DNA of 64,000 nucleotides from Ensifer adhaerens (GTDB lineage: Bacteria; Pseudomonadota; Alphaproteobacteria; Rhizobiales; Rhizobiaceae): positions 1 through 64,000 of the forward strand of contig NZ_LGAP01000034.1 of the NCBI RefSeq assembly GCF_001270265.1, given 5' to 3'. Positions 365 to 63,762 of this stretch are shown piece after piece (position 1 is the first letter of the stretch; each line of letters opens with the position of its first letter). The notes below the pieces were generated by a model, which worked only from the letters and a program-made list of their open reading frames with translations, was not told the DNA's origin and searched no databases. A program made the translations under genes and the position numbers.

Positions 365-441
<77 letters not shown>

Positions 442-63316: not shown

Positions 63317-63517
63317 GAAATGACCTGCAATTCCTAGGTGCAATGGCCTCTAAGGAAGCACAGAACGGTGGCATGTCGAGAAAGATGTGCTTTCGTCATC
63401 GTGTTATCTTTGGTTGTGGTTTACAACCTGTAATATTAGTTAGCCTTAATAAAGGCAACCATTAAGGGTCGGTTGCGCCGATTTCAGAAGCAAATTGTGC
63501 GGCGCAACAAATTCGCC

Positions 63518-63546
63518 CTTGAAAATATTGCGGCGCATGATTATTG
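63518..63546 (+). promoter_or_regulatory. Candidate promoter of the anti-SD sRNA
   Basis: CTTGAAA at 63518-63524 and ATTATTG at 63540-63546, with 18 bases between CTTG and the second element. This resembles an RpoH-type promoter (CTTG-N17/18-CYTATNT) but with mismatches in the second half. A start near 63552 would fit the sRNA. Confidence 0.4.
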
Positions 63547-63550
63547 TAAG

Positions 63551-63669
63551 ACTTATCGAAGCGCTGCACCTCCTCCCGCGGCGCCCGATGCGGATCGGTG
63601 GCACTCCTCCTCCCAGTCACCGGTCAAGTTTGAGAGCCCCGTGCACCTCCTCCCGCACGGGGCTCTTTT
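63551..63669 (+). ncRNA. Anti-Shine-Dalgarno sRNA (alpha-r14 / cuckoo type)
   Basis: Three consecutive hairpins, each showing a CUCCUCCC motif in its loop: stem GCGCTGC/GCGGCGC with loop ACCTCCTCCC (63561-63584); stem GATCGGTGGC/GTCACCGGTC with loop ACTCCTCCTCCCA (63593-63625); and terminator stem AGAGCCCCGTGC/GCACGGGGCTCT with loop ACCTCCTCCC (63633-63666) followed by TTT. This is the architecture described for the alpha-r14 family of rhizobial sRNAs and the cuckoo RNAs, which present single-stranded anti-SD sequence to ribosome-binding sites. The 5' end is inferred. Confidence 0.9.
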
Positions 63670-63762
63670 CATGTCTGGACCCTTGCGCACCTGACAAAAT
63701 CGCCTGAACGGTGGCGCAGATTTTACTGGTCCTGTAGATCCTGCGGGTGTATCGGCGCGGTC

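Follow-up and report, generated by a model that had tools for sequence, protein, structure and literature searches.

The alpha-r14 locus

We analysed a window of 64,000 nucleotides from an Ensifer strain of the adhaerens group. It holds a small RNA (sRNA) gene of the alpha-r14 (ar14) family (Table 1), with two small-protein genes upstream and a transporter gene as its downstream neighbour. A cmscan search of Rfam gave a full-length match to the ar14 model, RF02344 (model positions 1-123 of 123; E-value 1.5e-18), whose gathering cut-off is 58.8 bits. The RNA belongs to the known alpha-r14/NfeR1 family, within which it is unexceptional; a sequence-only reading of the locus had already assigned it to alpha-r14/cuckoo and proposed a check with this model. 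The sole other Rfam match above cut-off in the window is a tRNA gene at 365-438 (+), with 64.9 bits.

The segment 63540-63680 folds at -60.4 kcal/mol, against -41.55 (sd 3.78) in 200 shuffles, none of which equalled it (z = -4.99). Each of the three hairpins presents CCUCCUCCC in its loop, and the anti-Shine-Dalgarno (anti-SD) motif that the sequence-only reading saw in all three loops is there. Its stem lengths of 7, 10 and 12 pairs were nearly right, the second being correct and the other two longer than it had counted (Table 1). Hairpin 3 continues into UUUU and has the look of a terminator, the role that the sequence-only reading gave it. The 5' end is predicted at about 63554 from an alignment with SmelA075 of S. 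meliloti, whose coordinates are given in PMC7143759. Given the covariation of its stems, we treated open reading frames that overlap the RNA as spurious.

The downstream neighbour is a DMT/EamA gene (PF00892). The neighbours had been described earlier as a small membrane protein and a DMT transporter; the transporter was confirmed, and the two small upstream proteins had no Pfam match. The four neighbouring proteins scanned had EamA domains, PBP domains or no Pfam match, and DUF1127 was not found among them.

Table 1. Positions in the window of the ar14 RNA and of its putative promoter elements
Feature	Position	Strand	Basis
Distal PhaR-type box, 21-mer, palindrome TGCGGCGCA at 63498-63506	63492..63512	.	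best PWM match in the 64-kb window, 20.45; TGC-N3-GCA here in 16/16
-35 element CTTGAA	63518..63523	+	sequence; CTTGA[A/T] in 16/16
Proximal PhaR-type box in the -35/-10 spacer, palindrome TGCGGCGCA at 63529-63537	63523..63543	.	third PWM match in the window, 11.0; present in 16/16
-10 element TATTGT, 18 bp from -35	63542..63547	+	TAT[T/C][A/G]T; spacing 18 in 15/16, 17 in L059
ar14 (alpha-r14) sRNA	63551..63670	+	cmscan RF02344, 106 bits
Hairpin 1, 12 pairs in two blocks (5 + 7), loop ACCUCCUCCC at 63568-63577	63554..63590	+	fold, covariation
Hairpin 2, 10 pairs, loop ACUCCUCCUCCCA at 63603-63615	63593..63625	+	fold, covariation
Hairpin 3 (terminator), 13 pairs, loop ACCUCCUCCC at 63645-63654, U run to 63669	63632..63667	+	sequence, fold, covariation

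Conservation of loops and stems across the genus

The window and 15 other genomes of the genus provided 16 orthologous sequences (12 distinct). Each of the other genomes had, among the matches listed, one 120-nt ar14 match above the cut-off. The divergent small protein was found nearly full length in 11 of the 15 fetched stretches, with a 26-residue match in one more, and the DMT gene in nine; at least one of the two was present in 14 of 15, and these flanking genes support the orthology of the 16 sequences. The sequences align without gaps over 120 columns, of which 1 of 33 is variable in the loops, 18 of 70 in the stems and 2 of 17 elsewhere. The one-sided Fisher p for loops versus stems is 0.003, calculated on columns that are not independent of one another. 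Nearly all stem cells (99.8%) are paired. In six pairs both partners have changed, whereas shuffles averaged 2.0 such pairs and none of 500 had as many; slid-alignment controls yielded 0 or 1 doubly changed pair. In this covariance comparison the loops do not vary as much as the stems, and the stems show compensatory changes, in agreement with the earlier proposal that the loops are the selected part. An exact pattern for the 5' half of the RNA returned ten records, nine from Ensifer/Sinorhizobium (E. adhaerens, E. sesbaniae and E. oleiphilus among them) and one from a "Rhizobiales bacterium", with records of the strain's own genome perhaps excluded. Judging from these sequences, the alpha-r14 sRNA of this strain is genus-wide.

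The strain's genome contains eight ar14 matches, and the six above cut-off share the same loops. This copy may be little expressed, since reliable detection in S. meliloti was limited to one of the six NfeR1 loci (PMC7143759). Both points would suit a redundant, poorly expressed paralogue without a role of its own. Such a reading is nevertheless unlikely, given the gap-free alignment, the retention of promoter and RNA in 16 of 16 orthologues and the compensatory changes in the stems.

Paired palindromes at the promoter

Two TGCRRYGCA palindromes, one upstream of the -35 element and one within the -35/-10 spacer, are found in all 16 orthologues, with their first bases at about -53 and about -22 (counted from 63551) in every case. 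All boxes have an RRY inner triplet (GGC, AAT, GAC, GAT, AGT or AAC), whose first and last bases can pair with each other in 27 of the 32. As putative operators, these palindromes match the published site of PhaR/AniA, a PHB-sensing repressor, in the arrangement of phasin promoters. The PhaR site is given as TGCRNYGCASMA in B. diazoefficiens (PMC6201568) and as YGCRNYGCR with AT-rich arms in S. meliloti (PMC12542648), and a pair of palindromes flanks the -35 element of phaP1 and likewise that of phaP2 (PMC12542648). Using a position weight matrix (PWM) built from 17 sites of PMC12542648, distal boxes across the 16 orthologues scored 18.6-29.2 and proximal boxes 10.9-27.2. A single box is not convincing, because the best match reached 20.45 in one of 20 random Markov sequences of 64 kb. 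The case for PhaR as the candidate regulator is carried by the conservation and arrangement of the boxes, the proximal box of the window scoring only 11.0. A PhaR gene is present at G000:C17:43965 of the same genome (TIGR01848, 147.8 bits versus a cut-off of 109.45).

The double palindrome TGCRRYGCA-N18-25-TGCRRYGCA occurs at three places in the 7.46-Mb genome (one match for the reversed pattern), namely the ar14 promoter, the DNA ahead of an abcR1-type gene and a third site. The ar14 promoter was among the matches in each of the 16 genus genomes; the other matches vary between genomes. TGTGCRRYGCANNAAWT likewise occurs at three places (none in the reversed control), which are the ar14 promoter, a position upstream of a phasin gene (PF09361) and one other. 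The phasin promoter of this genome has two boxes, with PWM scores of 27.0 and 21.9.

A different regulator, for example a LysR-type protein such as LsrB, or NtrC, could be using the palindromes. Both LsrB and NtrC act on NfeR1 (PMC10746234), and LsrB sites of other ar14 copies can resemble PhaR boxes, 3 of 11 upstream PhaR-type matches overlapping an LsrB motif. However, the LsrB motif GCAT-N3-TG-N3-T, which stands upstream of 31 of 51 other ar14 copies, was found within 180 nt upstream of this copy in none of the 16 orthologues, and the NtrC motif TGC-N11-GCA is present in only 5 of 16, at about -225. We regard this possibility, too, as unlikely.

Core promoter elements

The upstream sequence had also been called RpoH-like, a description that holds for the -35 element CTTGAA and fails at the -10 element. 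The RpoH1 consensus of S. meliloti is CTTGAA-N16-CCTATAT (PMC8844928); at the ar14 promoter the -35 element alone fits, and the CC before the -10 element is absent in all 16 orthologous promoters. As a positive control, the second tandem ar15 gene of the same genome (abcR2 by position) has TTGAA-N16-CCCATAT, which fits the RpoH1 -10 element; AbcR2 of S. meliloti is RpoH1-dependent (PMC8844928). The sequence points only weakly to RpoH control of the ar14 RNA, because the -35 element fits but the CC is missing in 16 of 16, whereas abcR2 has CCCATAT. An RpoH-driven stress sRNA like CcsR or AbcR2, beside which the palindromes would be incidental, would accord with the retention of the RpoH1 -35 element as CTTGA[A/T] in every orthologue and with the RpoHI/RpoHII promoter of the CcsR RNAs (PMC10253847). 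It is an improbable explanation, since in addition to the missing CC it leaves palindromes kept in 16 of 16 orthologues unaccounted for. These PhaR/AniA-type palindromes, which flank the -35 element and which the sequence-only reading had missed, suggest a carbon-storage signal rather than heat.

Distribution of the promoter pattern in Rhizobiaceae

A promoter-only pattern, CTTGMA-N5-TGCRNYGCA-NNATTAYNNT, was searched in 394 Rhizobiaceae genomes; being derived from promoters of this kind found beforehand, it tests the link to the RNA and not the discovery of the motif. It occurs at 15 places in 14 genomes belonging to 3 of 109 genera (seven places in the Ensifer genus considered here, seven in a second genus and one in a third), and most Rhizobiaceae genera are without it. 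The CTCCTCC loop motif follows 10-40 nt after the pattern at 15 of 15 places. The reversed pattern was absent among the matches listed for the same 394 genomes. A spacer box with PWM scores of 20.4-26.8 is also present in six ar14 copies from plasmids of Sinorhizobium, Rhizobium and Pararhizobium, which came from a search whose query included the promoter. A search with only the RNA led to two S. meliloti copies, SmelA075 and one that adjoins a DMT gene; their boxes, scoring 16.9 and 21.2, lie at about -47.

Proposed mechanism and candidate targets

We hypothesize, with a probability of about 0.6, that PhaR represses the ar14 RNA until PHB accumulates and that the RNA then blocks ribosome-binding sites. 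PhaR (AniA) would occupy two operators flanking the -35 element, one of them within the spacer, and keep the RNA off. Accumulating PHB granules would titrate PhaR; sequestration of PhaR by accumulated PHB has been described (PMC12542648). RNA polymerase would then start near 63551-63554 and produce an RNA of about 120 nt ending at hairpin 3. Each of the three identical loops would pair with a purine-rich SD region (GGGAGGAGG-like) and so prevent translation. Loops of this family pair with translation starts and silence mRNAs; those of NfeR1 are redundant with one another, and transport genes and ntrB are among its targets (PMC10746234). By analogy with NfeR1, mRNA silencing by the loops is expected for this RNA. 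The Ensifer copy would probably be the type case of a distinct alpha-r14 class wired to carbon storage, in which PHB granules titrate PhaR and thereby free a phasin-type promoter to make an anti-SD RNA with three seeds. A full store of carbon would then act directly to silence a group of mRNAs, and relatives in other Rhizobiaceae would share the spacer operator.

Perfect GGGAGGAGG sites (9 nt) before an ATG occur at seven places in the genome, against one for the reversed control. Two of the seven precede ORFs that appear plausible by eye, encoding a 174-aa protein whose start resembles a signal sequence and an AhpC/TSA-like protein of 230 aa. Other candidates were set aside. The start of the genome's own ntrB (an ORF so called by its place after dusB) gave -7.0 versus a shuffled mean of -9.9 and no good loop match, and the starts of phaP and of the DMT gene were also without a good loop match. 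The start of the DMT gene matched the loop no better than shuffles did, and the earlier remark holds that the neighbours give no hint of the targets. The anti-SD sequence of 16S rRNA is CCUCCUUU. It is very unlikely that the loops form a general SD decoy that damps translation broadly instead of silencing an mRNA set, as their identity in all three hairpins and the rarity of perfect 9-nt sites might suggest, since CCUCCUCCC extends past the 16S sequence and so favours GGGAGGAGG-type sites, and published RNAs of this type act on defined mRNAs (PMC10746234, PMC8844928).

Rhizobiaceae carry several near-identical anti-SD RNAs with no clear division of labour. If PhaR controls this copy, the copies would differ by input and not by seed, with LsrB and NtrC serving the NfeR1-type copies and PhaR/PHB serving this one, and carbon storage would be tied to post-transcriptional control beyond MmgR. 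S. meliloti deletions of phaR and phbC exist (PMC12542648).

Comparison with known systems

NfeR1/alpha-r14 of S. meliloti (RF02344, cuckoo RNAs) is alike in its three hairpins, CCUCCUCCC in each loop, variable stems and length of about 120 nt (PMC10746234, PMC3927594). Its promoter is CTTAGAC-N17-CTATAT with LsrB and NtrC sites, whereas the promoter here, CTTGAA-N18-TATTGT, has a pair of PhaR-type boxes and lacks the LsrB motif. The closest S. meliloti relatives are SmelA075 (pSymA) and the copy beside the DMT gene (CP090106.1), with 82-84% identity over 117 bases. The CP090106.1 copy adjoins a DMT gene as the Ensifer copy does, and each relative shares a PhaR-type box, a single one. That box lies at about -47, the core promoter is different, and SmelA075 is given as RpoD-dependent (PMC7143759). 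The CP090106.1 record, labelled pSymB of S. meliloti Ak57, has 3.72 Mb and, to judge by that length, is probably the chromosome.

AbcR1/AbcR2 (alpha-r15, RF02345) are likewise anti-SD RNAs regulating transport mRNAs, with abcR2 driven by RpoH1 (PMC8844928), but their fold family differs from ar14. The CcsR1-4/CIN1 locus of Rhodobacter encodes related CcsR-like/cuckoo RNAs (PMC10253847) in an operon that includes a DUF1127 gene and is driven from an RpoH promoter. At the ar14 locus neither was found, the search for DUF1127 covering four neighbouring proteins. MmgR of S. meliloti is a PhaR-repressed sRNA with a PhaR box at its promoter (PMC12542648); it belongs to another RNA family and has one box in the table of that paper, versus two here. 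The phaP1/phaP2 promoters and the strain's own phasin promoter share the two-palindrome arrangement, but drive a protein gene, and the box spacing is 18 in the own phasin promoter as compared with 29-32 at the ar14 promoter.

A search by title and abstract opening, with subscription journals mostly outside its range, found no published PhaR-ar14 link, and an undiscussed match in Table S5 of PMC12542648 is possible. The main text of that paper contains no "sRNA", "AbcR" or "NfeR1", its displayed "small RNA" passages concern MmgR, and mmgR is the one RNA gene recognised in its Table 3. In PMC10746234, AniA appears only in a reference title and PHB is absent. The reverse direction is found in PMC8844928, where AniA is given as a putative AbcR1/2 target. 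The RNA is ordinary; its PhaR-type wiring looks new, and a promoter class of this kind, conserved across a genus, is undescribed as far as the literature searches reach.

Other alpha-r14 and alpha-r15 copies

Among 52 ar14 copies from several genera, 50 have three loop motifs in the Rfam interval and two have two. Counting 60 nt upstream, 30 of 52 have four motifs, at least two of these owing to a neighbouring upstream copy. The copies at G000:C13:33096, C14:4513 and C36:34902 (L010-L012) reach four motifs through an additional anti-SD hairpin that precedes the Rfam interval, and they have an LsrB-type motif near -93; by eye, hairpin 1 of the 63551-63670 copy resembles the extra 5' hairpin of such four-hairpin copies. 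The two ar14 matches of the strain that fall below cut-off, at G000:C1:777949-778059 and C27:39062-39181 (42.8 and 38.9 bits), have degenerate loops.

The idea that PhaR boxes lie upstream of ar14 genes in general was dropped, as PhaR-type matches scoring at least 15 are not clearly enriched there (11 of 51 other copies in the 180 nt upstream versus 5 of 51 in the 180 nt downstream). Eight of the 11 upstream matches are free of overlap with an LsrB motif. For further ar14 loci, the upstream scan is unreliable where the match already contained the promoter (e.g. L121, L122). L022, L034, L035 and others, which lie outside the genus or are first of tandem pairs, have PhaR-type matches of 16.9-24.2 about 90-180 nt upstream without LsrB overlap, which may be part of the promoter of a longer 5' leader. 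In the tandem ar14 pair at G000:C1:654845 and C1:655130 (L009), the downstream flank of the first copy holds CATGGGTGCGATGCAGCATTA, identical to the PhaR site given for S. meliloti SMc02051, which is close to NfeR1 by coordinates (PMC12542648, PMC7143759).

The ar15 model (RF02345) has three other loci above cut-off in the strain's genome. Upstream of the abcR1-type RNA at C1:800117 (L111), PhaR-type palindromes lie at G000:C1:799991-800031 (-122, -108 and -90; PWM 9.2, 11.1 and 21.3), and abcR1 may share the PhaR input. Genome-wide matches also include similar double palindromes in G014, G006 and G015. A double palindrome ending in TAATATGCACCCTTTGCAACGCA occurs in six genus genomes; in the one examined, L161 (G001:C1:1471037), it is near an ORF for a CDP-alcohol phosphatidyltransferase. 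The plasmid ar14 copies L193 (Rhizobium sp. TH2) and L196 (Rhizobium sp. T136) have a cold-shock protein gene within about 0.6 kb.
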